DNA of 31,338 nucleotides, taken from positions 1 through 31,338 of IMG/VR virus record IMGVR_UViG_3300047550_002709; one strand, given 5' to 3'. The DNA comes from a virus. The position numbers and the translations under genes were made by a program. Each line of letters opens with the position of its first letter. The stretch's first letter is position 1. Positions 1 to 26,317 of this stretch are shown here, in pieces. The notes below the pieces were generated by a model that worked only from the letters and a program-made list of their open reading frames with translations, was not told the origin of the DNA and made no database searches.

Positions 1-1151
1 CTTAATATCCTATCTGCCATGTATTTAGCTCTATCATCTTTCCATGGCCATCTGCCTGATCCGTCAATGATATAAAGCGGCCCGATAAGGCTGTCAATCC
101 TACTGCCGTTTGTAGGATCTACGGTTGACATTTGAACTCTGCCAGCCACGTCCGTTGGGACGCTGCCAATATCTATGTCGAACGTGTCCGTGCCGTAAAA
201 GTCTGTAGCTGATAGCCTTAGGGTGTAATCACCAAAGACGCTATTGCCTGAAGCGGTAACGGTAGATGTAGTTGAGTTTGAAAGTGAAAGCACGGCTGGG
301 GTCGTTCCAACCTGCGCCCATGAATAAGTGATTGTCCCGGTTCCGGTGCAATCCCCGAAAACGCTAAATGATGTATTTGTTTTCTGGGTCCATTTCGTAG
401 AGCCGCTAAATAGTGTCGCCGTTGGGGTCAACGAACAAGTTGGTCCAGTTGGAAGAACCCCGGAACCCTTTAGGGTTAGTATCTGGCCAACCCACTGCTG
501 CGAAGCGCTAATTGTTAAGGTTGGAGTTATGCCTGTCTGAATGGATGCTACTGTCTTGTATTGAAGACCGCCCATTCCGTCTATGTCGGCTACGGCGGTG
601 TATCCGGTATCTGCGGTTGTGGTTATTCCGAGATTATCCCAAATGGCACCCTGGAGAATGATCTCTTCGTTGGTTGATGTGGTAAAGCTAGTAGCGGTGA
701 TCGCGGTCCCGGTTCCACTGTTGCCTGTATTTCCAGAGCAGACATCTATTCCGGAGTTGTCGATTCCGGAAATTTGACCAACTATTACGGATGCGTAAAC
801 GGAAATAGGTGAAAAGTTTACCGTGACGATATCGTTTGAATTGCCAGCAGTACTAAGCGTATACCACCATTGAACATTGCCAATGGTGGCTGTCTTGGCC
901 GGAGAGCATGCAACCCATGTATCTCCAGCCGTATTTGTAATCGAGGAAACGCTTGCCGCTGGTGTTCCGATACGAACCAAAGCTACTAGCGCCCGTCCGT
1001 TAACGTGGTTTGTGCCAGATGTTGAGAGGCTTGTAACGCCAGCACCAGTGGCCACCGAGGCTTTGTCTGCGCTAACGAAGCTTGGAGAGATTACCCCGTA
1101 CAGATGCAGGCAGAACAATAAATATAGAAAGATGCTCTTATATAAATTCAT
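1..1151 (-). CDS. Signal-peptide-bearing tail/fibre-like protein, C-terminus cut by window edge
   Basis: I translated this frame directly: ATG at 1149-1151, open to base 1, 383 residues with no stop, so the C-terminus lies outside the window. The N-terminus (MNLYKSIFLYLLFC...) is a hydrophobic Sec-type signal without a clear lipobox. Residues ~30-230 form a Gly/Ser/Thr-rich beta domain closely related to the next upstream gene (shared blocks TNTAGDTW, KTATIGN, QWWY, GNSNDIVT, DGMGGLQYK). After that comes a region resembling an Ig/PKD-like beta-sandwich (~240-330) and then a new, more charged segment. It starts 2 nt after the stop of its paralogue, so it is probably co-transcribed. It is likely a virion surface or receptor-binding component. 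A phage-encoded exported surface protein is the main alternative. The function is inferred from composition and context only. Confidence 0.75.
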   Translation of the reverse strand, partial: MNLYKSIFLYLLFCLHLYGVISPSFVSADKASVATGAGVTSLSTSGTNHVNGRALVALVRIGTPAASVSSITNTAGDTWVACSPAKTATIGNVQWWYTLSTAGNSNDIVTVNFSPISVYASVIVGQISGIDNSGIDVCSGNTGNSGTGTAITATSFTTSTNEEIILQGAIWDNLGITTTADTGYTAVADIDGMGGLQYKTVASIQTGITPTLTISASQQWVGQILTLKGSGVLPTGPTCSLTPTATLFSGSTKWTQKTNTSFSVFGDCTGTGTITYSWAQVGTTPAVLSLSNSTTSTVTASGNSVFGDYTLRLSATDFYGTDTFDIDIGSVPTDVAGRVQMSTVDPTNGSRIDSLIGPLYIIDGSGRWPWKDDRAKYMADRIL

Positions 1152-1153
1152 TA

Positions 1154-1870
1154 TTAAAAGATTTGTCCTCTGCGTGGCGATGAACCTGAAGAAGCGCTAG
1201 ACCTTAGCGTTATGGTCTGCACTATCCAATCCTGCGACGAGCTTATGGTTAGAGTTGGGGTTATCCCGGATTGGGTCGAAGATACAACCTTGTATTGAAG
1301 ACCTCCCATTCCGTCTAGGTCGGATACTGCCGTGTACCCGGTATCTGCGGTAGCGGTAACGCTCAGCGCTCCCCATATTGCCCCTTGAAGTATTACCTCA
1401 TTGGCATAAGACGTTGAAAACGAGCTAGCTGATACCGACGTTCCGGCTCCATTGCCTCCGGTGTTTCCGGAGCAAACGTCTATTCCGTCTATTCCTGTAA
1501 TTTCTACTACAATTATTGATGCGTATACAGATATAGGGTCAAAATTTGCCGTTACAATATCATTCGAGTTCCCGGCAGAACTTATTACATACCACCATTG
1601 AGCATTTCCAATTGTTGCTGTCTTTAGGGGAGTGCATGCAGTCCAGGTGTCTCCAGCCGTATTCGTTACAGACGAAACTGTTGCCGCCGGGGTTCCGATT
1701 CTTATAAATGCTGCGTATGCCTTTCCTGCTGTATGATTAGTGGCTGAAGTTGAAAGGCTAGTAATTCCTGATCCTGTTGCGTTTGAGGCCTTATCCGTGC
1801 TAGACACGGATACTGAAATCTGACCAAAGCAGCAAGCCGATAAGAATAAAAGCAATAACAGATTTCGCAT
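1154..1870 (-). CDS. Signal-peptide/lipoprotein-like tail protein, paralogue of the next gene
   Basis: This is a 238-residue protein. Residues 1-18 are a strong signal peptide (MRNLLLLLFLSACC) with a lipobox-like LSAC, so Cys13 could be lipidated; signal peptidase I cleavage after CFG is the alternative. Residues ~30-225 are one Ser/Thr/Gly-rich beta domain that matches residues ~30-230 of the downstream gene nearly block for block. A weaker match to the N-terminal ~200 residues of the repeat fibre at 24638-26317 suggests a shared fold. The ATG overlaps the stop of the 1181-aa fibre gene (TAATG), so the two are translationally coupled. Such domains occur in phage tail-associated proteins, but a signal peptide is unusual there. 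There is no catalytic motif. The exact role is unknown. Confidence 0.75.
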   Translation of the reverse strand: MRNLLLLLFLSACCFGQISVSVSSTDKASNATGSGITSLSTSATNHTAGKAYAAFIRIGTPAATVSSVTNTAGDTWTACTPLKTATIGNAQWWYVISSAGNSNDIVTANFDPISVYASIIVVEITGIDGIDVCSGNTGGNGAGTSVSASSFSTSYANEVILQGAIWGALSVTATADTGYTAVSDLDGMGGLQYKVVSSTQSGITPTLTISSSQDWIVQTITLRSSASSGSSPRRGQIF

Positions 1871-4800
1871 TACTGATTACACTCCAGCGTTGCATTTAGA
1901 TACTTTGATGAGCTTACCGTGGTTATATTTGCGGCCAGGATGTCATTTGCGGAAATTGAGGTTGTGGTAAAATCGCTAAGCGTTGTAGATCTTACTGCGG
2001 TTCCAGTGGAGATAGATACGCCGCTAGTATTGATGGAATCTGAAGATGTCGGAATTGCCGTTCCGGATGCCTTCTTCCAGAACTTAACAGTGGCCGTTCC
2101 TCCGTCAACTAATATATTCCATGCCGCTACTGTACATGAAAACGGGACCGCAATATAGACTGTAGTTGTAGATCCCGCCGAAAGCGCAGAGCCTGCCGGA
2201 TCTCCGAATGTGAATGATAACGCTCTAGTGATCTGATTCCCAGTTGGCGATATCATCTGCATGTTAGTTCCGTCGTAAACCAGTTCTACAACTTGCCCAA
2301 CCCTTATTTGATTATCTGAAAGGTCGGTGGTGACGCCTCCAGCTACGCTTTTAATGGTCTTAGCTCCTAAACTATTAAAGTTTATGGTGGCCGCTCCAGT
2401 GTTAGCGGTGTTTGCCTTAAATCTGTACCGTCCGCCCGTTGTGTAAGAAGCGGGGGCTGGTGATAGGGAGCAGGCATAGGTGTCGTTTGATCCAGCATCG
2501 GCGCAATAGGCCACAGAGTCATCTAGAACTGATGTGGCTGTCTGGGCCGCTGTCGATGTCCCGCTTAAATTGCTAAATGCTGGCTGGGCTTTAGTCTGAA
2601 CACCAGCCGCCGTAATATTAGTCAGGAACTGATTAGAGGTTGCGGTTGTCCCGATTACCGCATTGTAAACGTTTCCGGCATCATCCTTCCACAGCGGCAC
2701 TCCAGAGGTACAATACTGAGATACCGTTCCAGAAGATGGCGTTCCTGGAGCGGTTCCGCAAGTTAGTGTTAGCTTGCTGGTAGTAGCATTGCGAACCCAA
2801 GGTACAGTGAATGCCGTGGCATTAGTACCGTCATAACGGAACGCCTGAACGGTGCAAAGGTTTGCGGTTGAGTCTACGGTGCCAGTCCCTACGTAGTTTG
2901 CTGGCCAAGCAAAGGTCCTTCCGCCTGTTCCGTCCTGGCAGATTTCATGAATGATGATCTGTCCGGTTACAGCCCCACTCAGCGTTGAGCTTGAAACGTT
3001 TCCGGTCAGGGTCAGCTTGAAAGAAGTAGTGGCTTTTGATGTAACCGTGAATGTAGGCGTAGCGCTGTATGTCGTTGTTACAGTTTCTGCTATTGTCGGA
3101 GTTCCGCTGACTTCCGTATAGGACACCTGGGCGCATGTTAAATTTCCGTTTGCGGCGATAGTCGTAGCGTACTGACCAGCAGTACAGTCGCTGGGGTTTG
3201 CCGCTAGAGCCGTGGCCGTAGTCGCATTTCCAGAAAGTGATCCGCTAAAGGTTCCCGTTGTGGTTCCAGGAAGCGTCGGATTATTTGGAATGCCAATAGT
3301 TATAGCCCCAGTGGAAGCGGAAACAGAGATCTGGTTGGCTGTTCCGGCTAGCGTAGTGGGGAGAGCGGTACAGCCCTCTGAGTTGCCGTTCGCATCAACG
3401 CCAGTGGCGAATGAGCCAGAGGAGCAGTTAGTTCCATTGGCGGCTAGGGCGATTGCTGTAGTAGCTGAGATTGTTCCACTTCCGGAGGCTGATAGGCTGG
3501 CCCCGGTACCTACAACCATAGCCGCAGAGGCGTTTGTTCCGCTCGTGATATCGTTAAACGCGGAAGATCCGCCGCCACCTCCGGATACAGTGCAATCCGT
3601 GCGCGACTGTCCAGTATTATCTGAACAGGTAACCCCAGATCCAATAAAGTTTACGGTTGGCCTTTGGGTTAAAGCGACACCCTCATCTGCGATTGTTTGA
3701 TTATAGAGAGTAGGAGTTCCGCTAATCTGAGAATAGGCCACTTGAGCGCAGGTTAAATCCCCATTAGCCGCAATGGTTGTGGCGTATTGACCAGCAGTGC
3801 AATCGCTTGGATTCGCCGCTAGCGCTGTAGCCGTTGAAGCATTGCCCGTTAATGGGCCGCTAAATGTTCCTGTAGTCGTCCCTGGAAGTGTGGGGTTGGT
3901 CGGAATGGAGATTACGATTGCTCCAGTGGGCGCAGAAACCGCAATCTGGTTGGTTGTTCCGGTTAAGGTTGTTGGCAGCGCAGTACAACCCTCGGAGTTT
4001 CCCTGGGCGTCTACCCCCTGAGCAAACTGCCCAGAGGAGCAATTTGAACCGTTTGCCGCTAATCTATTAGCCTGAGTTGCAGAGATCGTTCCGGTTCCGG
4101 TAGCAGAAAGGGCGCATCCGTTTCCGCAGACCATGGTAGCGGTGATGTTTGTTCCGCTAGTGATATCGTTAAATGCTGTTGATGATAGGCTTCCAGAAAT
4201 GGTACAATCCGTTCTTGACTGTCCGGAGTTATCGGAGCAGGTTACGCCGGAGCCAGTAAAGTTAATCGTTCCTCTTTGAGTTAGCGATCCCCCTTCGTCT
4301 TGTATTGTCTGATAATAAAGAGTGGGAGTTCCTGATAGCTGGCTATAGGCTACCTGAGCGCAAGTCAGATTCCCGTTGGCGGCAATTGTCGTCGCGTATT
4401 GACCAGCGGAGCAGTCCGTTGGGTTTGCGGCTAGCGCTGCGGCGGTAGTAGCTGCAATCGAGCCAGATCCAGTAGTTGATAGGCTTGCACCTGTTCCGAT
4501 TACCATGGCTGCGGTTGTATTGGTTCCGTTGGTAATAGAGTTGAATCCAGGAGCACCCCCACTTCCGGCCTGTTGTGTCCATACGTTAGTAGCCGTGCAT
4601 CCGTAAAGATTCTGGCCGGATGTAGCACTAGTTAAGAAAAACTGATCGCCCAGGGTGCAGGTAAGCGGAAGAGCTAGCCCGGTCTTCGCCGGGGCCGTGC
4701 TCGATGCGGTACTCATGTCCTGCCGTCCAGTAAATACATTATTGGTTCCAAGCATGGCTACCGTTCCAGTTGCCGGGAAGGTAATAATGTAGCCGTCTGA

Positions 4801-5415
4801 GCCGTTAAAGGTGAGAGTGTTACTGACTGTTACCGTTTTCCCGTCCGCAATAGTGAAGGTCGCCCCAGTAGCTGGCTGGGTGAGTGTAAGCTTGTTAATG
4901 GTTCCGGGAAGGATAAAATTTGAAGGAACTGACAGTACGCATGTTCCGCTATCCGTGATGGAACATGTCCCGCTAACCGTAATCTGACCAGTTGTTCCCT
5001 GGATCGTTACCTGAGTTACCGTGCCGCTTCCAGGAACAGATGTTTGGCTATATAGGCGATTAAATCCGCTGAGATTGCAGGTAACAGTTCCCGAGATTGT
5101 CACTTTTATGTAATTCGGATAGTTCAGCAAGAAGCCCTCAGCGACTGGGCTAGATGAAGAGTTAGACACCGAAGAAACCCCAGAGTACGGAGTAAAAGAC
5201 CCGGTGGATGTTGATCCATAGGATAGGTCTGCGCTCCATGACCCAGACCCGCTACAGGCTATCTGGACGGTAGTTAGGCGCATGGTGGATGCTGACCTAT
5301 TATCTATAATTCTGGTGCTGGTGATTCCAGGAATGTATACGTTGTAGAGCGGCTGAGGCTGTTGGGCAAAAACCGCGCTAGTTAGAAGCAGTAAAACGCT
5401 TAGTAATTTCTTCAT
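1870..5415 (-). CDS. Large repeat-containing tail fibre-like protein with N-terminal signal peptide
   Basis: This is an 1181-residue protein. Residues 1-18 (MKKLLSVLLLLTSAVFA, then QQ) form a textbook Sec signal with an AVFA-type cleavage site. The body is low in charge and rich in Gly, Ser, Thr and Asn. Two module types alternate: FNxITxGTN...LAAN at about residues 291, 415 and 620, and LAANPxDCxAGQYATTIAANG...SGTPT at about 328, 532 and 737. This gives a ~204-205-residue period. A C-terminal part (~950-1181) contains typical fibre text (YRFKAN, GAATINFNSLG, VELVYDGTN) and a last beta domain. A good AAGGGC site precedes ATG 5415. Size, repeats and position downstream of neck genes fit a tail fibre or spike. 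The signal peptide is the odd feature. It may instead be an exported phage adhesin. Confidence 0.8.
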   Translation of the reverse strand: MKKLLSVLLLLTSAVFAQQPQPLYNVYIPGITSTRIIDNRSASTMRLTTVQIACSGSGSWSADLSYGSTSTGSFTPYSGVSSVSNSSSSPVAEGFLLNYPNYIKVTISGTVTCNLSGFNRLYSQTSVPGSGTVTQVTIQGTTGQITVSGTCSITDSGTCVLSVPSNFILPGTINKLTLTQPATGATFTIADGKTVTVSNTLTFNGSDGYIITFPATGTVAMLGTNNVFTGRQDMSTASSTAPAKTGLALPLTCTLGDQFFLTSATSGQNLYGCTATNVWTQQAGSGGAPGFNSITNGTNTTAAMVIGTGASLSTTGSGSIAATTAAALAANPTDCSAGQYATTIAANGNLTCAQVAYSQLSGTPTLYYQTIQDEGGSLTQRGTINFTGSGVTCSDNSGQSRTDCTISGSLSSTAFNDITSGTNITATMVCGNGCALSATGTGTISATQANRLAANGSNCSSGQFAQGVDAQGNSEGCTALPTTLTGTTNQIAVSAPTGAIVISIPTNPTLPGTTTGTFSGPLTGNASTATALAANPSDCTAGQYATTIAANGDLTCAQVAYSQISGTPTLYNQTIADEGVALTQRPTVNFIGSGVTCSDNTGQSRTDCTVSGGGGGSSAFNDITSGTNASAAMVVGTGASLSASGSGTISATTAIALAANGTNCSSGSFATGVDANGNSEGCTALPTTLAGTANQISVSASTGAITIGIPNNPTLPGTTTGTFSGSLSGNATTATALAANPSDCTAGQYATTIAANGNLTCAQVSYTEVSGTPTIAETVTTTYSATPTFTVTSKATTSFKLTLTGNVSSSTLSGAVTGQIIIHEICQDGTGGRTFAWPANYVGTGTVDSTANLCTVQAFRYDGTNATAFTVPWVRNATTSKLTLTCGTAPGTPSSGTVSQYCTSGVPLWKDDAGNVYNAVIGTTATSNQFLTNITAAGVQTKAQPAFSNLSGTSTAAQTATSVLDDSVAYCADAGSNDTYACSLSPAPASYTTGGRYRFKANTANTGAATINFNSLGAKTIKSVAGGVTTDLSDNQIRVGQVVELVYDGTNMQMISPTGNQITRALSFTFGDPAGSALSAGSTTTVYIAVPFSCTVAAWNILVDGGTATVKFWKKASGTAIPTSSDSINTSGVSISTGTAVRSTTLSDFTTTSISANDILAANITTVSSSKYLNATLECNQ
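3085..4545 (-). repeat. Three-copy ~204-residue coding repeat in the tail fibre
   Basis: Copies of the LAANPxDC module start at residues 328, 532 and 737 of the fibre (nt ~4434, 3822, 3207). The partner FNxITxGTN module starts at 291, 415 and 620. The spacing is 204-205 residues (612-615 bp). The third copy is incomplete. The copies are much better conserved as protein than as DNA (different synonymous codons), so they are old duplications held by selection rather than fresh tandem repeats. Confidence 0.85.
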
Positions 5416-5422
5416 AGTGCCC

Positions 5423-5674
5423 TTATGCGGTTGTTACCGCTAGTGTCCCTAGGCTTTCGTCGTAATATATCCTGCCAGCAGCAAGAGCCGCATTCGCGGC
5501 TGTCTGATTTGAATAAGACGGGAATGCTGAATACAAGACAGCAGAGATTGGAGTTAGCGGTACCGTCCCTACTCCTCCCACCTCTTGGTCGGAGGTGGAC
5601 GGAGATGGGGAGGTAGAAACCTCCAGATCCTCCAGGAATATCTTCCTGGGCGTGATTGTTAAAGATGCTGGCAT
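5423..5674 (-). CDS. Small hypothetical structural-region protein
   Basis: This is an 83-residue protein with no recognised family. The first third is polar (MPASLTITPRKIFLEDLEV), followed by a Ser/Pro/Thr-rich stretch. The C-terminal half is Ala-rich and ends in GRIYYDESLGTLAVTTA, which resembles the beta-rich ends of small virion proteins. The ATG is preceded by AAAGGATATTAA, a good ribosome binding site. It lies 8 nt upstream of the large fibre gene and 10 nt after the neck-like gene, inside a tightly packed late operon, so a minor virion or fibre-attachment role is plausible. There is no signal peptide, unlike its three downstream neighbours. Confidence 0.7.
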   Translation of the reverse strand: MPASLTITPRKIFLEDLEVSTSPSPSTSDQEVGGVGTVPLTPISAVLYSAFPSYSNQTAANAALAAGRIYYDESLGTLAVTTA

Positions 5675-5684
5675 TTAATATCCT

Positions 5685-6518
5685 TTAGGTAGTCTGAAGT
5701 AGCACTTCTCCAGCTACGCTTCTTAAAAGTCTGAAAAGTTCGTTTAGGCGGTTCTTGTAGTATTTGGTCAAGGTTTCGTTCTTTGACTCTCCATCCATGG
5801 AGTAAATAGCAGAAAGAACCGCAAATTTTACGTAAGGCTTAAAGCTTGCCGGGAGGTCTGGTATGTAGCCATCCAGGCTTTCAATCTCTTCGCTTGGGGT
5901 GTAGGTGTCGAACTCTGTAATATTCAGAGTTGACTCGGTGATTGTCGCTGGAATCCCATACATCGGGGAGGTAAACTCCGTGTATACCTGACCCAGATCC
6001 GTCTTACCAATGGTCCCATACATACCTATGGATGCCGGATCGTAGTCTATGTCGAAGGTTAGGGCATCGCTGGTCTCAGAGAAGGTGCCATACATGCCAC
6101 TTTCGTAAAAAGTGAAATATCCGTTCCAGGCTGGCTCTGGACGAATCTCGATCTGGTCTTCCTGTAGCTGGTCTGTCCTGAATTCCTCTGGCGTTGCAGG
6201 TCCTAATTGCTGCCATCTATAGTCAGAATTGTCCCAGTAATGGCCTGAGCCTTGATAAAGATTGGACTCGTCGCAGGTGGCTGCTAGGGTCTGGTTGATA
6301 TACCAAGGATGGTCGTAGATGCCGACCCCCAGGGCCGTTGGGATGTTATTCAGCTTTACGAAGCAGTTCGAGGCCTGTAGGATATTCCTAATGGAGTCAT
6401 TCAGAAGCCGAAGGAACATATCATCAGACACAATTTGACCCGTTAAGCCTCCCGGCTCAAACAGGGAATTGCATACATCTGAATAGACTTCGCGTACAGA
6501 AATAGCCACTAATTCCAT
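5685..6518 (-). CDS. Neck/head-tail adaptor-like virion protein
   Basis: This is a 277-residue acidic protein. The N-terminal ~55 residues are helical (IRNILQAS), the middle is beta-rich, and the C-terminal ~60 residues are helical again (KYYKNRLNELFRLLRSV). That helical-beta-helical plan is shared with the 218-aa protein two genes upstream and is typical of podovirus adaptor/neck proteins. Three MYG motifs (residues 142, 166 and 186) mark a short beta repeat in the middle. The ATG is preceded by AGGATAA. Its position, after capsid and decoration genes and before fibres, agrees with a connector or tail-nozzle role. The family is not certain from sequence reading alone. Confidence 0.7.
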   Translation of the reverse strand: MELVAISVREVYSDVCNSLFEPGGLTGQIVSDDMFLRLLNDSIRNILQASNCFVKLNNIPTALGVGIYDHPWYINQTLAATCDESNLYQGSGHYWDNSDYRWQQLGPATPEEFRTDQLQEDQIEIRPEPAWNGYFTFYESGMYGTFSETSDALTFDIDYDPASIGMYGTIGKTDLGQVYTEFTSPMYGIPATITESTLNITEFDTYTPSEEIESLDGYIPDLPASFKPYVKFAVLSAIYSMDGESKNETLTKYYKNRLNELFRLLRSVAGEVLLQTT

Positions 6519-7643: not shown

Positions 7644-8810
7644 TTACGGCCAATACCAGCCGTCGTATACTGAATAATCGTGATCTTTGGCGAAATTGGC
7701 CCCGCCGAATCCGGAACCCTGACCCCTATTCCCGTAGCGCTGCAAGAGGAAATCGTCATCCTGCAAGCTCATGGATGCAAATCCATCCTCAAACCTGCGC
7801 TCGTAATCAGCCGACAGGGCTGGATTGAAGTACGGGTCGTCCGGGGTAATCTTGGTCCTATAGGCGTCCGCCATCATCCCATGGAAAAGCACCGTTGGGT
7901 TCATGAACGCCGGGACTAAATCTCCCTCTGACATCATCTTCGCTGGCTGCTTGAAGTACGTAACCCGCAACTGCCGCTCAGTGGGGCACCTCGGCCAGAT
8001 CTCCCACTGCATGCAGTTATTTGAGTTAATTCCTTTATTTGCAATAATCTGCGGATACCCAGTAGAGCTTCGCTGTGGGTCGATCCGGTTTAGTTCTAAA
8101 ATCGGGACGTTGACCCTTAACGGAGGCAAGCCTTGAGCCTGATCTACTACGGCCAATAGGGACTTGATATCCGGCGAAATCGTGTAATACATCTGCCAGA
8201 TGGAGTAGTCGTGATCCGTGAGGTCATCAGCCCTCCAGGCCATATCCACGATCATCTCAGTTGCAGATACAATTGCCTCGATGGTAAAGATTGGGAATGT
8301 ATTGCCAAGGCGTAGCTGCCGTCCGCAGTAAGAGCTTGAAGTCACCGCACATCCAGGATTGTGAAATTTCTGAAAAATTGCTACAAATGAGGTTGGCCGT
8401 AGCTCGATCACATGCACAATCTCTGGATCTCCGTCTCCGTCTACATAGAGATAGGAGTCCGCTGTAATACCGTCCATTGATGCTGGTGTTACAATCTGGT
8501 ATCCAGTCCTAATTACACCGTCCGGAAGGGTTGTATTAACCACATCATCTATCGGCCAAGTGGTGCCCGTGCCTGTTACCGTGGTACTATTCTTGGTGAA
8601 ACTGACAGATCCTCCAGTCACCGAGGCCGGGATGTAGAGAATTGTTTCGTCAATCAGGCCACTCCAATATGGCTGGCGGTCGAGGCAGGTTCTGACTCTG
8701 TCATTGGCAAATCCCTGTAATACAGTAGGGGCGCAATTCGGCTTCAAGGCCCTGCATCTGCCGACAAGTTCACCTAGGGTTGTATTGTATGATGAGTGCT
8801 GAACAGCCAT
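7644..8810 (-). CDS. Large neck/adaptor-like virion protein
   Basis: This is a 388-residue protein. N-terminal helices (LGELVGRCRALKP; FANDRVRTCLDR) lead to a beta region with SVSFTKNSTTVTGTGTTWP and LYVDGDGDPEIVHVIEL, then a mixed domain. The tail is Gly/Asp/aromatic-rich (RYGNRGQGSGFGG; DHDYSVYDGWYWP). The tandem threonine-rich beta segment and the position directly after the capsid/decoration block fit a podovirus head-tail joining or tail-hub protein. AGGAAAGTAA precedes the ATG. An intrinsic terminator lies just upstream (8829-8863), so this gene either starts a new transcript or depends on read-through. Confidence 0.7.
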   Translation of the reverse strand: MAVQHSSYNTTLGELVGRCRALKPNCAPTVLQGFANDRVRTCLDRQPYWSGLIDETILYIPASVTGGSVSFTKNSTTVTGTGTTWPIDDVVNTTLPDGVIRTGYQIVTPASMDGITADSYLYVDGDGDPEIVHVIELRPTSFVAIFQKFHNPGCAVTSSSYCGRQLRLGNTFPIFTIEAIVSATEMIVDMAWRADDLTDHDYSIWQMYYTISPDIKSLLAVVDQAQGLPPLRVNVPILELNRIDPQRSSTGYPQIIANKGINSNNCMQWEIWPRCPTERQLRVTYFKQPAKMMSEGDLVPAFMNPTVLFHGMMADAYRTKITPDDPYFNPALSADYERRFEDGFASMSLQDDDFLLQRYGNRGQGSGFGGANFAKDHDYSVYDGWYWP

Positions 8811-9758: not shown

Positions 9759-10814
9759 CTAGGCTAGTGCGGTCCCGATCATTTTAAATGATGTACGGGG
9801 GCTGGAAACCACGAGGTTACTCGCGATCAAGAACTGACCCGAGACATCGATGGTGTTCTGCGCTTCCTTGAAACCAGTGAATCCGAACTGGAACTTCTTG
9901 TTGGCTGAAACGTAATATTCCAGGTAAGAAGTATTGAGGCCGAAGATTACACCGTTGGTTGAACCCGCCACATCCTGGAGGTACTTGGAGATGGTTACGT
10001 CCGCTCCGTTGAACTGGAAGCTCTGAATGCCGACCTTCGCGAGATCGCTGTCCGCGCGCATGTAGCGCTGGTTGGGTTGAGTCGCGTTCCAGATCTTGTT
10101 GTAAGCGCCTTGGGTGCAAACTAGAAGATCGGGCTGGTCTGTACCGAACCAAGCAAAGCCATAGGCGTTGTTCAGATCGTTCAGGGTGAAGGTGCTAACC
10201 GCACGATTGGTGTAGGCGTTTAGGCCACCAACCGCAGCGTAGGTAGTAACCGCACCAGTGGAAGGCGGGGTTAGGATGTCGCTACGAGTGATACCGCCGA
10301 TGGTTGAGAATGACTTGGTGAAGTCAGTCGCAGTTGAATAGGTTGAGTTGCTATTGCCGTCATCGATCCAGGCCATTAGACCGTCGATGTTCTTGGTGCT
10401 GGAGAGCGTACCCTGACCGTCCTGGTAAATCGTGGTACCCAGGAACTGACCCATGGTGAGAGAGGCATTCGCCATTTTGCTCTCAACGATGGAGAAAGCT
10501 GCCTCGGGGCCACGGTTCAGTACGTCATCGGTTCCCAGTAGGGTTACGTTGACATAGCCGAACTTCATGTTCACGGCTAGCGCGGTATCGGTCTGGCGGT
10601 AGGCGGTATCGAACTGATCTCCTCGACCAAACGCGCCGCTGGCCAGAGCCGCGTACATCAAGGGACGCTGGACTGCTAGACCGCCCTCAAAGTTGACCTT
10701 ATTCTTGCTCATTAGGCGAACGAATAGAGGGTCGTTCTTAAAGATTACATCGGTCGTCTTGGGAACGATGTAATTTGTAGTGTAAGCGTTAATTTCGCTG
10801 TATGTTAAAGCCAT
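9759..10814 (-). CDS. Major capsid protein
   Basis: This is a 351-residue protein (MALTYSEINAYTTNYIVPKT...). The N-terminal arm is followed by KNDPLFVRLMSKNKVNFEGG, a segment typical of phage coat proteins. The body alternates helix and strand, and late strands (VISKYLQDVAGSTNGVIFGL-like region, DVSGQFLIASNLVVSSPRTS) suit an HK97-like fold. The length is usual for coat proteins. It sits directly downstream of a scaffold-like gene and upstream of decoration-like genes, with AGAGGAT before the ATG and a hairpin after the stop, the expected layout for the most abundant virion protein. I see no catalytic motif. Confidence is high from context and moderate from sequence. Confidence 0.85.
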   Translation of the reverse strand: MALTYSEINAYTTNYIVPKTTDVIFKNDPLFVRLMSKNKVNFEGGLAVQRPLMYAALASGAFGRGDQFDTAYRQTDTALAVNMKFGYVNVTLLGTDDVLNRGPEAAFSIVESKMANASLTMGQFLGTTIYQDGQGTLSSTKNIDGLMAWIDDGNSNSTYSTATDFTKSFSTIGGITRSDILTPPSTGAVTTYAAVGGLNAYTNRAVSTFTLNDLNNAYGFAWFGTDQPDLLVCTQGAYNKIWNATQPNQRYMRADSDLAKVGIQSFQFNGADVTISKYLQDVAGSTNGVIFGLNTSYLEYYVSANKKFQFGFTGFKEAQNTIDVSGQFLIASNLVVSSPRTSFKMIGTALA

Positions 10815-14087: not shown

Positions 14088-16013
14088 TTATCCACCTATC
14101 GCGGCTGATGGGCCATTCTGCTCAGAGGTTGTCCTGGGTGCTCTAGTACCACCAGCGCCGCCACCATTGGGGCCTTGAGGTCCTCCCTGACCAGCGATAG
14201 CCTGCCACTCCTGCATCTCACTCAAGAACTTCTGCATCTCCTGGTCAGAGTAGCCGAATTTACGCATGACTTCCTGCGGCGGCAGTAATCCACGAGCAGC
14301 CAGCGCCAAGGCTTCCATCTTAGACTTGTCCCTAGCTCCAGAATGTAGACTTCCAGGCTGAACCATTACGGCGAATTGCTTCCAGTGACTCATCTTCCGG
14401 TTTTGGTCCAATGATGCGCTGGTCTCATCTCCCGGATAAAGCATGCCGGGGTCGTAGGTGAAATCTTCCCAGGTCAGACCATCAGAACCCAGGATCTTCA
14501 TTCGCTGCTTGGCCGTGTAGAACTGGATGATATTAGAAACCTTCTGCTGACCGACCCTTTGGATAAAGGATTCGATCATCTTCTCCTCGCGGCGAAGCGG
14601 GGTCTGGAGGGAGTCCTTCATCTGGTCTAGGGTATCACCAGACGGCATCTGCTGCTTCTTGGCCATTGCGGCAACGTCTACGATTCCGCTGAGCTTATCA
14701 AACTCAGGAAGCAGCACTCCCTGATATATATCCCCAACGTATTGAGGGATTTGCGGGATTGCGCCGTACTGGATATCTGTCCCGATATTAACCTGAGGAT
14801 TTACCTTCAGTCTAGCTCCAGGCATGTCCGATAGATACTCGCGCCACGCCGCCTCTGAGGCTACGTTTGTCTTCGTGATAATCGTCGGATTCAGCGCCCT
14901 CTTGGTAAGGTCTAGCACCCCAGCCGGGATCTCGTTGATCGCGTCCTGTAGCGGGATTAGTGACCTGTAGGAGCTTAGCCCATAGTAAGACCACGGGATC
15001 GGGTTCAGCTTTAGGTCTATAAACGGATATAGCCCATGCCAGAACGGGGAGGGGCCGTCGTACATCAGGCGAGTACCGGCGTAGATAATTAGCCGCTTGC
15101 GCGGATAGAGGCGCTCTCCAGGCTTAACCTCGTACCACCAGTTATGCATCGACTGAGGCAGAAACGGGTCCTTCATTAGGATTGTCCGCTTGGATTCATT
15201 GATAGAGATGTCGTCGTAGTAGTACTCTTCTAACTCTATTGATCCGTATAACTTAGATCCGCTATATAGATCCGGCATCTGCCGAACGCCAACTAGGCGC
15301 TTAAACTGGGGCGACATTTGGCTCCAGGTGTATTCCGGGATGTGTCCAGGCCGTGCGAATGTATCGCTAGACTTGGCATCGATGTACCGTGCTTGGTTCT
15401 CGATTCCCTCTGAATTCATCGGGAATACTTTCTTGAAGTAGGAAATTGGTTTCCAATTCCTATAGAGGACAGCCGTTGAATCCTGGATGCTCCGCAGGCT
15501 AGGCTGGATCGGCATGACGTTGTCCGGCCCTAAGGCTAGGCTGGTCATCATACCAGGACTCGCGGCACCCTCACGACAGAAGGAAATCCCGTGAAGCATG
15601 GCGATATCCACCATATCCATCATCACGGAGGATAGCTGCTGACGGTGCCACTCTGCTACCAATACCCCATTAATCGCCGTAGCCGTATCGTCATAGGCCT
15701 CTATGGATGAGGATACCTCACAGACTGGCTGAGAGTCCGTTAGAAGCGCTAATCTCTCCCTACGGACTAGCTCCATCTTGTTTTCAACGAAGCGGCTTTT
15801 GTACTTAGGGCGGCGGTTATCCCATTGATTACCTTCGAGATAGCGGATGTACTTCTCGATGTTATTGAACTCCGGGGAGTTCTTGTAAGCTAGATACGCC
15901 TGCTCTTTAGTCTGTTCTTTCCAGTCGTAGAGCCTTTGGGTATATGCTTTTCGGTAATCCGGTGTTTCCTTGCCGTCTTCCGCGATGGATGGCGAATGGG
16001 GTATTTGGAGCAT
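14088..16013 (-). CDS. Portal protein
   Basis: This is a 641-residue protein. The N-terminus has IEKYIRYLEGNQWDNRRPKY and SRFVENKMELVRRERLALLTDSQP, the usual portal start (helical wing with a short WxxR-type motif). The centre has WSYYGLSSYRSLIPLQDAINE, typical of the portal crown/stem (loops before the long stem helix). The C-terminal part is helical and ends in a Gly/Pro/Ala-rich tail. The length is typical of podovirus/P22-like portals. It is the dodecameric DNA gate and head-tail connector. The ATG overlaps the previous stop (TAATG). It is flanked by large terminase upstream and capsid assembly genes downstream, the standard order. Confidence 0.9.
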   Translation of the reverse strand: MLQIPHSPSIAEDGKETPDYRKAYTQRLYDWKEQTKEQAYLAYKNSPEFNNIEKYIRYLEGNQWDNRRPKYKSRFVENKMELVRRERLALLTDSQPVCEVSSSIEAYDDTATAINGVLVAEWHRQQLSSVMMDMVDIAMLHGISFCREGAASPGMMTSLALGPDNVMPIQPSLRSIQDSTAVLYRNWKPISYFKKVFPMNSEGIENQARYIDAKSSDTFARPGHIPEYTWSQMSPQFKRLVGVRQMPDLYSGSKLYGSIELEEYYYDDISINESKRTILMKDPFLPQSMHNWWYEVKPGERLYPRKRLIIYAGTRLMYDGPSPFWHGLYPFIDLKLNPIPWSYYGLSSYRSLIPLQDAINEIPAGVLDLTKRALNPTIITKTNVASEAAWREYLSDMPGARLKVNPQVNIGTDIQYGAIPQIPQYVGDIYQGVLLPEFDKLSGIVDVAAMAKKQQMPSGDTLDQMKDSLQTPLRREEKMIESFIQRVGQQKVSNIIQFYTAKQRMKILGSDGLTWEDFTYDPGMLYPGDETSASLDQNRKMSHWKQFAVMVQPGSLHSGARDKSKMEALALAARGLLPPQEVMRKFGYSDQEMQKFLSEMQEWQAIAGQGGPQGPNGGGAGGTRAPRTTSEQNGPSAAIGG

Positions 16014-16969: not shown

Positions 16970-19159
16970 CTAAAGCATTGAATAATCAGGCATGTACGGG
17001 TCGTTTGACTCGTAACTGGACAAATATCCGTCCGGCTCTATCTCCATATTCCTGATATCGGAACGGGGATTTTGTACCGGAGATTGCGCCTGCATGTTCC
17101 TCTGGGCCTTTAGGAGTCTACTTTCACAAAACGGACAGCGGTTGATAGCGGATGGGTCGTCGGCTCCCCAGTCTTTTTTGCACCTATCGCAGGACATTTT
17201 ATAAAGGCAGAGGGACGGGTCCTTTTCTACCTTCTGCGGGATGATTCCGTAATTATCCTCGTAGTCCCCCTGATGGGCGGTATAAAGACAGATTGCCGCA
17301 GCGATCAGAATGTCATCCTTGAAACCCCTCTGGGCACCTGTTTTTACGCTATCATCTTCCTTGGTAAAGGTCTTCATTTGCTCCACTAGGCGCTTATCCT
17401 GGACGTGGAAGATGCCCTCTTTTAGCCAGCGATCAAGGCTGACTATCAGTTTGGGTTTCGTAACCTGGGTTGTTTGCCAGTGATATGCACCCTGAGCTAC
17501 GGAGATTGATCCAGGCCTTTTCTTGTAAACGTTTGGATATGTTAGGTTTACGAGTAACTGGTCGGCTGTTGAATTGCCTGGAGAGTTGTATTCTACGGCA
17601 ATCTGGGCATCGTTATACCACTTACCTAGCTTGGCTAGCTCATAGGATAAAGTAAGCGGGTCTGTGATATTTGTACAGAGCGTAGCAACGTGGAAATCTG
17701 GCGCTCCGCGAACACCCACGCGGTTTACCCAAGCAACAGAGTCGTCCTTGCCCTTGCCGTACCCAACGTCTACGCCGATCTGGTATTGAGCGCCTGGAAG
17801 CGGATCTTCCCATACAGACAGATAATGCTCGTCGCCCTCATGGAACGCAGTACAGCCCTGGAGGTGGCATTTACGGCTGAGATCGTCTGAGTCGTACCCA
17901 TGGAAAAACCCATGTTTGTCGAAGAATCCCTTACGCGGTTTCTGGGCTTTGGCGCATGTGTAGGTAGCATTCTCTATCGACTTTTCGGAGAATACTGGAT
18001 CGCCGCTGGAGATGAATGCCTCTTCTGCGGTTAGCGCAAGCTCCTGCTTAATCGAGCGTGGATCTGAGGCGTTAAGCTTTTCATTTACGATGAAATAGAT
18101 CTGTTCGTCGGTGAGAGTGTACGGCTTTAACTCGCCAGACCCGCAGTTCGGGCACTTCTGGCCGTCCCGTTTACCTTTAGAGATTTTGCGGTTAAAGAAT
18201 CGCTTGCACTTCTTGTCGGAGCATTGTACCCAGTTCTCATAAACCACATCCCGCATGCGGTTTTCTTCTTCACCTAGCCTCCAGCCGTTGGGCGGGGCCA
18301 TTACGCGGGTGGTTTCAAAGAAATACGGCAGGAATACAGGCTCCCAGTCCGATCTCTCAGCTAGCTCTTCGCACTTTGTATAAAAGTGATGAGACGGAGT
18401 TCCTGCGCCTTTAGCGGTAGACTCTAGGATTGCAATGGTATCCGGGTGGTTTACTAGGGCGTATTTTAGATCTTCTTCTAGAGATTCCTTTAGGTTGCCC
18501 CAGGCGGTAAACTCTGATCCGTGGAAAGCGTTCAGCTTGTAGCCCTGACCCATGCCACCCTTTTTGGTGGACCACTGGACGCGGACTGCCGAATTTAGAC
18601 CAATTCCACCTTCCTTCATGGGAACGTCAAATACGATACCATCGGTGATGCTGAATGATGAGTACCTAGGGCGTAGCCACCACGGCAATTGCCGATACAT
18701 GGGGCTTAGGTAGGTATTGAAGAGATTGGTTGACTGGTCGATATCCTCAGATACAATCAGCCCCTTCCGGTTCGGCTTAAACACACAAGTCCAGAAGACA
18801 ATCGAGTTGCCGAATAGAGACATGCCCAACTGACGGGCTTTGATTAGGATTACTCGCTGGGCCTTCCCGCGCTTCTTCATCTCCTCCATCTTCTGAAGGA
18901 GTAACTCCTGGCCGTCCCATAGGCGTAGGAGTTTATCATTGCCCTGCTTGTCAGATATCCAGAAATAGTTCTGCGCGGCGTAGCGATAGTCCTGCTGACA
19001 CTTCATAATCTCGTTTGAGATTAGAGTTAAGTCCTTTTCTTCTACGTGTTTCCAGCGCTTATCTTCAGGGATGTGCTCGTACTTCTTGAAGTACTCCAGG
19101 AGGTCCCAGACTAGCTTATCCCTAGCCCCCTGGATGGTTGGCGGGGCTTTAATCAGCAT
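16970..19159 (-). CDS. terL: Terminase large subunit
   Basis: This 729-residue protein is the packaging motor. The N-terminal ATPase has Walker A KARQLGMS (107-114) and Walker B TIAILES with catalytic Glu (241-247). The C-terminal RNase H-like nuclease has D464 (IGVDVG), E523 (AVEYN) and D615/D616 (KDDIL). Two extra Cys4 zinc ribbons are visible: one between ATPase and nuclease (C313, C318, C336, C339) and one near the C-terminus (C657, C660, C675, C678). The protein is longer than most TerL (~450-600) because of these. The ATG follows the putative small-terminase stop directly (TAAATG), preceded by GAGAAGAAGG. All core residues are present, so it should be active. Confidence 0.95.
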   Translation of the reverse strand: MLIKAPPTIQGARDKLVWDLLEYFKKYEHIPEDKRWKHVEEKDLTLISNEIMKCQQDYRYAAQNYFWISDKQGNDKLLRLWDGQELLLQKMEEMKKRGKAQRVILIKARQLGMSLFGNSIVFWTCVFKPNRKGLIVSEDIDQSTNLFNTYLSPMYRQLPWWLRPRYSSFSITDGIVFDVPMKEGGIGLNSAVRVQWSTKKGGMGQGYKLNAFHGSEFTAWGNLKESLEEDLKYALVNHPDTIAILESTAKGAGTPSHHFYTKCEELAERSDWEPVFLPYFFETTRVMAPPNGWRLGEEENRMRDVVYENWVQCSDKKCKRFFNRKISKGKRDGQKCPNCGSGELKPYTLTDEQIYFIVNEKLNASDPRSIKQELALTAEEAFISSGDPVFSEKSIENATYTCAKAQKPRKGFFDKHGFFHGYDSDDLSRKCHLQGCTAFHEGDEHYLSVWEDPLPGAQYQIGVDVGYGKGKDDSVAWVNRVGVRGAPDFHVATLCTNITDPLTLSYELAKLGKWYNDAQIAVEYNSPGNSTADQLLVNLTYPNVYKKRPGSISVAQGAYHWQTTQVTKPKLIVSLDRWLKEGIFHVQDKRLVEQMKTFTKEDDSVKTGAQRGFKDDILIAAAICLYTAHQGDYEDNYGIIPQKVEKDPSLCLYKMSCDRCKKDWGADDPSAINRCPFCESRLLKAQRNMQAQSPVQNPRSDIRNMEIEPDGYLSSYESNDPYMPDYSML

Positions 19160-24637: not shown

Positions 24638-26317
24638 CTACTTGCCAACTCCAAGGATGGTTCTGGTAAGAGTGAACGGTGACGGCGGAGCGCCGACATA
24701 ACCAACCGCAAAGCCTGAATTATCTGCCTGAACGGCGTATTGAACGCCAGTAATAACCAAATGGATTGTGCCAGTTGCTGCTCCTGTATTATCGTCCTGA
24801 ACGGCATACGCCACGCCAGTAATTCCAGCCCTGTTTACCTGAACCGTGACTGCATCTTCGCCAATGGCTAGATCGGCTACATTTACTAGCGCCGCAGAGA
24901 CGGTGGTTGAAATCGAATCCGCAGCACTCCCAGAGTCGGATATGTTAATCGTGACCAGGAGGGCCTGAGAGGTGGTGTCAGCCGTCGTAGCATCATCTGA
25001 GACGCTAGCGATTACGTTAACACCAACCGCAGGAACGTCCGCCACGGAGGATAGATCTACAACCGATACCGGAATTGCCGAGGTAGTTAGCGATACCGAA
25101 TCTGCTCCGGTTGAGGAATCCGAGACGCTTAGATTTATTTCCCCCTGAGATTGAATCGTTACCGTCTGGGATTCTGCGCCTGTGGCATTATCTGAAGTGC
25201 TGACATTTACCGGAATCGAGAGAGTGGTTGTCTCTGCTCCGGCAGCGCTGTCTGACGTTGATAGCAACACCTGGACATTCAGGCTAGGCTGGTCATCGCC
25301 CGTAACAAGATCCGTAACATTTACAGGTACATTTACAGAAAGTGAGGCTACGTCCGCGCCTGTGGCGCTGTCTGAAACAGACTGGTAAAGTATTGGTATT
25401 ACAATGCTTACAGACTCTGATCCTGTAGCGCTATCCGATACAGACGGGGTAACATTTACACCAACGGAAGTTGACTCAGATCCCGTAGCATCATCCGATA
25501 CAGATGGATAGCTTATTCCGGAAGCGGTGATCGACTCGGCCCCGGTTGCGCTATCGGACACAGATGGCTGGACTTGTGGCCTAGCGGTTACAGTCTCAGC
25601 ACCCGTTGCGTTATCCGATACGGAAGGAACCAGCCTGTTGATTAAAAGAGTTACGGATTCCGCGCCTGTTGCGCTGTCGGATACTGATGGCTGCGGGTTA
25701 GTGCTTGCCGCCTTTAAACCGACTATTACAGAGGACATATTCCCAGCCCCTGTGAATGTTTGAGACTGAGCACCAGTTGATGATACTATCTTATATGATC
25801 CAATGACGCCCCTGCCGCTTGAACCAGACCCAGTATTTACTCCAGTTAGCCCAGTCCAGCCGGTTCCGGTAGACGCCATTGCGGTTGTTCCGTTATTCTG
25901 ACCACCCACGGCAATAAGTAAATCATTTGCATTCGTGTTGCTGTATGCTCCGGTAGTGATAGGGGAGGCTGATGCAGTGCTTGTACCCACACTACCGTCA
26001 ACAACGGAACTCGTGGCTACGCCAGAAAATTCAGCTATCTCTGAAGCTATGCTTGTTCCGGAACTCCATGTAACCGTAATACTTGTTCCCGCAGATGCGG
26101 CGACTACTCCATACCATAATTCGCAAGATGCGTTTCCGGAGTTTACGCGACCAATAAAATTCCACGTAACGTTGGTCTGCGAAACCGATGAAATAGTTAC
26201 TCCAGATGCTCGGTTTGTCGCATACAGCACTATTACGTTTCCATTTACTGGAGCCTGTGCAGTAATAGTGCTAGTCGTGGATGTTTTATCGCTACCGGAA
26301 ACGAACGCAATAGCCAT
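24638..26317 (-). CDS. Tandem-repeat fibre-like virion protein
   Basis: This is a 559-residue protein. Residues 1-205 form a Ser/Thr/Gly-rich beta domain weakly similar to the proteins at 1154-1870 and 1-1151 (ANDLLIAVGGQNNG region; CELWYGVV against QWWY). Residues ~211-495 hold fourteen copies of an ~20-residue unit of the SVSDSATGAESVS type, each with a fixed Asp. Two AYAVQDDN/QYAVQADN units and a C-terminal tail follow. It is almost uncharged except for those acids, giving a long regular beta stalk, possibly metal-stabilised. Unlike the left-edge relatives it has no signal peptide. It follows methyltransferase and glycosyltransferase genes. A receptor-binding or surface fibre is likely. 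Confidence 0.75.
   Translation of the reverse strand: MAIAFVSGSDKTSTTSTITAQAPVNGNVIVLYATNRASGVTISSVSQTNVTWNFIGRVNSGNASCELWYGVVAASAGTSITVTWSSGTSIASEIAEFSGVATSSVVDGSVGTSTASASPITTGAYSNTNANDLLIAVGGQNNGTTAMASTGTGWTGLTGVNTGSGSSGRGVIGSYKIVSSTGAQSQTFTGAGNMSSVIVGLKAASTNPQPSVSDSATGAESVTLLINRLVPSVSDNATGAETVTARPQVQPSVSDSATGAESITASGISYPSVSDDATGSESTSVGVNVTPSVSDSATGSESVSIVIPILYQSVSDSATGADVASLSVNVPVNVTDLVTGDDQPSLNVQVLLSTSDSAAGAETTTLSIPVNVSTSDNATGAESQTVTIQSQGEINLSVSDSSTGADSVSLTTSAIPVSVVDLSSVADVPAVGVNVIASVSDDATTADTTSQALLVTINISDSGSAADSISTTVSAALVNVADLAIGEDAVTVQVNRAGITGVAYAVQDDNTGAATGTIHLVITGVQYAVQADNSGFAVGYVGAPPSPFTLTRTILGVGK
24832..25687 (-). repeat. Fourteen tandem ~20-residue coding repeats
   Basis: The repeat Asp falls at residues 214, 235, 255, 275, 295, 316, 336, 356, 376, 400, 421, 441, 461 and 482, a spacing of 20-21 (once 24). 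Copies near the N-terminal side are the most alike (SVSDxATGxES). Later ones drift (NVTDLVTGDD, NVADLAIGED), as expected for repeats growing from one end. Confidence 0.9.

Follow-up and report, generated by a model that had tools for sequence, protein, structure and literature searches.

We identified three adjacent tail-like genes, T1, T2 and T3, each beginning with a Sec-type signal sequence, in a soil-phage sequence, an IMG/VR virus record of 31.3 kb (31,338 nucleotides, here called the window). Our preferred reading, to which we give a probability of about one half, is that they form an accessory cassette within the virion operon whose exported products would bind or cut glycans in the envelope or slime of the host and would not be virion parts. 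It builds on features that are directly observed, i.e. the signals, their conservation, the operon position, the tail-like homology, cysteine signatures and the carbohydrate- or surface-type domains of sister genes. That phage tail modules contain exported accessory genes is known; the present ones are unusual in their number, size and tail-like nature, and no description of such a cassette was found in the literature searched (open-licence papers on exported phage tail proteins and soil-phage secreted depolymerases).

Signal sequences of three genes in the virion module

Nearly all genes of the window lie on the minus strand, and this set includes terminase, portal, major head protein, an SU10-type adaptor and small tail genes. 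Named phages provided only ~25% MCP relatives, such as Mx8, plus short repeats of T1. Relatives retrieved via the head protein reach 78-103 kb in their longest contigs; the window therefore probably covers only part of a tailed phage genome of ~100 kb. The features discussed below are as follows.

1870..5415, minus strand: T1, fibre-like protein of 1181 aa, predicted to be exported (open reading frame, signal-like N-terminus, 30 Cys in the mature part, relatives of the T1 domain)
5365..5415, minus strand: predicted Sec signal peptide of T1, MKKLLSVLLLLTSAVFA^QQ (sequence; rule score and false-positive rate)
5026..5364, minus strand: N-terminal jelly-roll-like domain of T1, termed NTD (position behind signals in five lineages, structure model, fold search)
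2236..2514, minus strand: fibre domain of T1, residues 968-1060, with the Cys pair Y-C-ADAGSNDTYA-C (homologue comparison)
1873..2235, minus strand: C-terminal domain of T1, common to signal-bearing genes of G005, G006 and L020
1154..1870, minus strand: T2, beta-sandwich protein of 238 aa, predicted to be exported (open reading frame, AlphaFold model, Foldseek matches to viral proteins)
1823..1870, minus strand: signal sequence of T2, MRNLLLLLFLSACCFG, with lipobox LSAC or site CFG^Q (sequence)
3..1151, minus strand: T3, a T2 paralogue with an Ig-like region and a further domain (open reading frame, open at the window edge)
1068..1151, minus strand: predicted signal peptide of T3, ending SPSFVSA^DK (sequence, rule)
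5423..5674, minus strand: small conserved virion-module gene directly upstream of T1, no signal (syntenic; identity to close relatives 53-56%)
5685..6518, minus strand: conserved tail-module gene g5685, no signal (slot marker for signal-bearing genes in the window, G004, G008 and G412)
7644..8810, minus strand: SU10-type adaptor protein, no signal (Pfam PF24175, E 1.7e-5, slightly short of the curated cut-off)
9759..10814, minus strand: major head protein, no signal (phrog_9953, E 1.9e-25; 19 relatives)
14088..16013, minus strand: portal protein (phrog_156, E 6.9e-26)
16970..19159, minus strand: terminase large subunit (phrog_2, E 1.4e-16)

Elsewhere in the window, a minus-strand open reading frame at 24638-26317 encodes 559 aa, overlaps the next gene by 170 bp and has no PHROGs match. 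Scans of the window for promoters and terminators gave nothing above chance.

The signals were called with a rule based on a charged n-region, an uncharged hydrophobic core and an AxA-like or lipobox site, which does not separate cleaved signals from signal anchors. Its false-positive rate was 0.5% on internal segments and 1.5% on shuffled N-termini. When applied to phage lambda, the rule was positive for Lom, Bor, Rz, Rz1 and RexB and negative for J, Stf, H and R, and the tail and internal virion proteins gp17, gp12, gp14 and gp16 of T7 were all negative. In the window, T1, T2 and T3 were positive, as the original prediction of three adjacent tail-like genes with Sec-type signals had stated, and the nine neighbouring virion-module genes examined were all negative. 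By these rule-based criteria each of the three has a positive n-region, a hydrophobic core and an AxA-like site at its true start, with the predicted N-termini MKKLLSVLLLLTSAVFA^QQ (T1), MRNLLLLLFLSACCFGQ (T2) and MNLYKSIFLYLLFCLHLYGVISPSFVSA^DK (T3).

The claim that the signals are integral to the predicted starts also held, each ATG being the first after an in-frame stop located 2-15 codons upstream and abutting the preceding gene: T1 starts 8 bp beyond its neighbour, T2 shares one base of its ATG with the T1 stop, and T3 comes directly after T2. Given that no earlier ATG is available and that the preceding genes abut, the signals belong to the starts of the T1-T3 genes in their operon. The signal feature is real and conserved, and is no artefact of start choice.

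T2 and T3 (383 aa as seen, cut by the window edge) are paralogues whose mature parts are ~68-69% identical; their signal regions have diverged in sequence, and both are still signal-like. The N-terminus of T2 is ambiguous, fitting either a lipoprotein (lipobox LSA^C) or an ordinary signal-peptidase-I substrate (CFG^Q). The earlier suggestion of superinfection-exclusion lipoproteins is thus weakly supported: T2 has a candidate lipobox, but T1 and T3 have none and most homologues end in the A/G^Q type of site typical of signal peptidase I.

The tail-like nature of the three proteins was substantiated for T1 by a domain of fibre genes, for T2 by a fold of minor tail proteins and for T3 through its relationship to T2. 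Residues 968-1060 of T1 share up to 78% identity with a domain of fibre-like genes in many other virus contigs. The AlphaFold model of T2 (pLDDT 78, pTM 0.80) was compared with predicted phage proteins using Foldseek, giving a best TM of 0.84 (E 3e-11), with mycobacteriophage minor tail proteins among the matches in large number; solved structures matched the fold only as generic beta-sandwiches (Z no higher than 7.0). The NTD of T1 comprises ~110 residues behind the signal and is jelly-roll-like (model m5806aa12c1bb, pLDDT 73), its best structural matches being XepA (Z 8.8) and YomS (Z 8.3), a common jelly-roll with Z barely above background. Searches of T1-T3 against Pfam, NCBIfam and PHROGs gave no family above threshold, and we recognised in them no enzyme or known binding family and no beta-helix or other glycan-cutting domain. 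Sequence relatives of T2 outside the window were found neither in IMG/VR (searched with peptide patterns) nor in named phages, nor in 297 Acidobacteriota genomes, a search run without a positive control. The C-terminal part of T3 weakly matches a gene cluster of one bacterial locus, L164 (E 0.005-0.007).

Signal-bearing genes in related phages and in Acidobacteriota

We found the NTD in five lineages, all of one group of ~100 kb phages, represented by the window, G412 (also L166), G004, G008 and G005. Absence of the signals from homologues had been named in advance as the outcome that would count against the prediction; within the phage's own lineage the reverse was seen, the NTD lying directly behind a signal-like N-terminus in 5/5 lineages. 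The C-terminal fibre domain of T1 is more widely spread than the NTD and occurs both with and without a signal, indicating that the domain itself is not intrinsically exported. A fibre region predicted to be exported in G003_27128 is signal-less in G001_24906 of a sister phage (53% identity over 264 aa). G003 and G001 also carry adhesin-like repeat fibres (NTA-x-G...NTTGSNN), with a signal in G003 (L146 7128-9644) and none in G001 (L131 4906-8970).

The position of these genes varies. In G412, the slot after the g5685 homologue, which is that of the window, is occupied by four consecutive signal-bearing genes of 842, 250, 290 and 1289 aa, with more beyond; the start of the 842-aa gene, MKKILLILALLFVRVRISA^QQ, was judged by eye, since the signal rule fails on it owing to an arginine. 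A row of four signal-bearing genes also exists in G003, at a different place, and the closest relatives of the window (head protein 78-81% identical) have none at the window's slot and one to four elsewhere. The core head and tail genes, in turn, are syntenic and signal-free in all these phages. Among genes of at least 100 aa in seven relatives plus the window, signals are over-represented within the virion module, with 18/110 genes vs 21/532 outside it (Fisher p 1.2e-5, a value that ignores relatedness). The variable slots, together with this enrichment, indicate that T1-T3-type genes are accessory cargo of what is likely a late operon.

A conserved, signal-less fibre-base gene (METKEPDSRLSVRKEDLDDQELYRLNQV...) ranges from ~200 to 2023 aa among close relatives (G001 57946-64017, G002 36710-41203, G003 51017-51637; the same gene is present in G005, G008 and G412). 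In this tiny sample it measures 202-256 aa in four phages with the NTD cassette, vs 1497-2023 aa in two of the three phages without it. Two observations concern other genes of the relatives. An inserted HNH-endonuclease-like open reading frame separates the adaptor gene from the next tail gene (L166 979-1845, the same as G412). In L017 (9345-9968) and L018 (9308-9952), an open reading frame with a LAGLIDADG-like motif (YIAGLLDGEGTIG and YIAGFIDADGHVG, respectively) interrupts the major head protein gene, which suggests an intron or intein with a putative homing endonuclease.

The T1 domain was detected in 6 of 84,980 bacterial and archaeal genomes scanned, all six of them Acidobacteriota, and in 4 of 396 sampled Acidobacteriota genomes, one already found in the wider scan; only the former scan is neutral as to phylum, as a sample within one phylum cannot show absence elsewhere. 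With matches in 4/396 genomes, the domain is rare and probably mobile. Since the genomes carrying it, nine in total, all belong to this phylum, the phage of the window probably infects Acidobacteriota. Inspected in context, all nine genome loci had signals or signal-like starts. Some are prophages, in which the gene is the last of the tail module (L050/L129), one of three in a row after the tail genes (L163) or located behind a head gene (L162). At the remaining loci, two or three signal-bearing genes stand in a row by themselves, flanked by host genes or located on short contigs. These fibre-like rows outside visible prophages are located at L051 892-7119, L053 2462-8785, L054 3967-8150, L055 587-7431 and L164 1898-10218, the last of which sits between glycosyltransferase-like genes. 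Glutamine at position +1 was not used as a host marker: it follows 13/42 predicted signals in the Acidobacteriota loci and 8/27 in the phages, with only three in the E. coli sample.

Cysteine signatures and domains of sister genes

The 30 Cys of mature T1 occur mostly as two per small module. In its fibre domain, a pair of the form [FY]C-x-DAG...YAC-x-LSP is present in some homologues, and its occurrence was compared with that of the signals. With fully automatic signal calls, the pair was found in 16/27 signal-bearing vs 6/29 signal-less homologues (p 0.006). Inspection of the six signal-less exceptions showed that four are signal-bearing, the automatic call having failed through a wrong start or a narrow miss of the rule, and the other two (L060 and L077), with uncertain 5' ends, were set aside. 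After this curation of starts the pair was present in 20/31 signal-bearing vs 0/23 signal-less homologues (p 3e-7, inflated by relatedness); eleven signal-bearing homologues lack it. The signal state switches at least 7 times along the domain tree, of which only three independent pairs stand on well-supported branches; Cys follows the signal in ~1.3 of these on average and never goes the opposite way, in a phylogenetically independent test that is underpowered. A second signature is the parity of the Cys number in proteins of the phage group, even/odd counts being 21/5 for exported vs 160/167 for other proteins (p 0.0019, relatedness ignored). Cys density did not separate exported from other proteins. 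The two signatures, pair and parity, suggest from the sequences that export is real.

Several sister genes combine a signal with domains of surface or carbohydrate type. In G005_39461, the signal and NTD are followed by a tailspike-type beta-helix that matches phrog tail protein and tail spike families (best E 9e-17) as well as beta-1,3-glucanase and alginate epimerase structures. Other signal-bearing genes of the group encode Laminin_G_3 concanavalin-like lectin domains, an SGNH/GDSL-like (esterase-like) domain slightly short of the curated cut-off, the Ig-like domains He_PIG and Big_2, and a surface-protein repeat of the choice-of-anchor type. For G007_31366 and G006_26689 a lyase-like function was considered, but Pfam did not confirm it and it was dropped. 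Given the lectin, SGNH-esterase-like, tailspike and surface-repeat domains in the cassettes of relatives, exported adhesins are the best supported of the functions originally proposed. Another of these, tail parts with an unusual use of the membrane, may also hold.

Possible functions of the cassette

Under the reading that we prefer, T1-T3 would be translated late, together with the virion genes, and would cross the inner membrane by Sec with removal of the signal peptide. After forming disulfides in the periplasm, they would bind or cut glycans of the envelope or of the extracellular polysaccharide, as free proteins resembling fibres or tailspikes. This would loosen or mask the matrix and the receptors surrounding the dying cell, so that progeny could escape without being trapped by debris. 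The lack of a recognised enzyme domain in T1-T3 counts against this reading, as does the layout of the genes, since swapped C-terminal parts on a conserved N-terminal domain are the classic arrangement of virion-anchored tailspikes. XepA of prophage PBSX, Lom of lambda and Llp of T5, described below, are precedents for it. A further precedent is WceF of Pantoea stewartii, an exported enzyme of tailspike fold that acts on the EPS of its own bacterium (PMC7949094). It differs in being encoded by a bacterial gene in an EPS cluster and in using a Tat signal, and T1-T3 themselves have no enzyme domain.

The resemblance to tail fibres, minor tail proteins and tailspikes resides in the T1 domain, the T2 fold and the G005 beta-helix; to our knowledge, such proteins do not carry signal sequences, whereas T1-T3-type proteins do. 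They could still be true tail parts, i.e. virion fibres or spikes exported to the periplasm for disulfide formation and added to particles at lysis. We regard this as unlikely, although it would account for the likeness of T1 to virion fibres and of T2 to minor tail proteins, for the tail-operon position and Cys pairing, for the retention of the NTD while fibre or beta-helix parts are swapped behind it, and for the short fibre-base gene of the phages with the NTD cassette. Against it, the core tail genes are complete without T1-T3-type genes, the closest relatives lack such genes at the window's slot, a sister protein has choice-of-anchor repeats of the surface-anchor type, and we know of no tailed phage that matures its virion fibres in the periplasm. 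The two-compartment assembly route that this implies, with genuine fibres and spikes passing via Sec to the periplasm, becoming disulfide-bonded and joining particles only at lysis, is not described for tailed phages and seems rather doubtful. We judge equally doubtful a role in superinfection exclusion or receptor masking, by which the receptor of the phage itself would be blocked by exported copies of receptor-binding modules. Proteins for exclusion are usually early, whereas these genes lie inside a probably late operon; moreover, each genome has several of these large proteins, most of which are not lipoproteins, and sister genes have enzyme-like domains. The lipobox of T2 and the domains that exported proteins have in common with signal-less ones of sister phages (G003 vs G001) fit such masking, and a precedent exists in Llp of T5, which blocks readsorption and the binding of debris (PMC9586334). 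Llp is likewise an exported phage protein acting in the envelope of the infected cell, but it is a small lipoprotein with no homology to fibres.

Lysis helpers or surface proteins of lysogenic conversion have precedents in two systems. XepA of prophage PBSX is a late phage protein that is exported and absent from particles (PMC6834076), and Lom of lambda lies between tail genes (PMC12309495). The NTD has XepA and YomS as its best structural matches, and Lom, like Bor and Cor-type tail-region morons, is a signal-bearing accessory gene among tail fibre genes. XepA, however, is a single protein of a lytic cassette from a Gram-positive host and has no fibre domain, and Lom is one small outer-membrane beta-barrel, in contrast to a row of several large fibre- or tailspike-like proteins. 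As the jelly-roll is generic, with Z scores barely over background, and no lysis gene was recognised adjoining the cassette, a function of this type appears highly unlikely. The hydrophobic N-termini might instead arise by chance or insert into the membrane for DNA entry, and hydrophobic virion proteins do exist in other phages. We consider this the least credible possibility, because the A/G^Q-type sites are consistent across unrelated genes, Cys signatures accompany them, and the feature turns up again in phages of unrelated types and in clusters on host chromosomes.

Phage annotation takes fibre- and tailspike-like genes as virion parts and receptor-binding proteins. Several such genes are most likely exported in this group, so host-range inference from them could be wrong. 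If exported, they would represent an overlooked class in soil, namely phage-made extracellular glycan-active proteins; if periplasmic maturation is true instead, they would reveal an unsuspected periplasmic assembly step in tailed phages.
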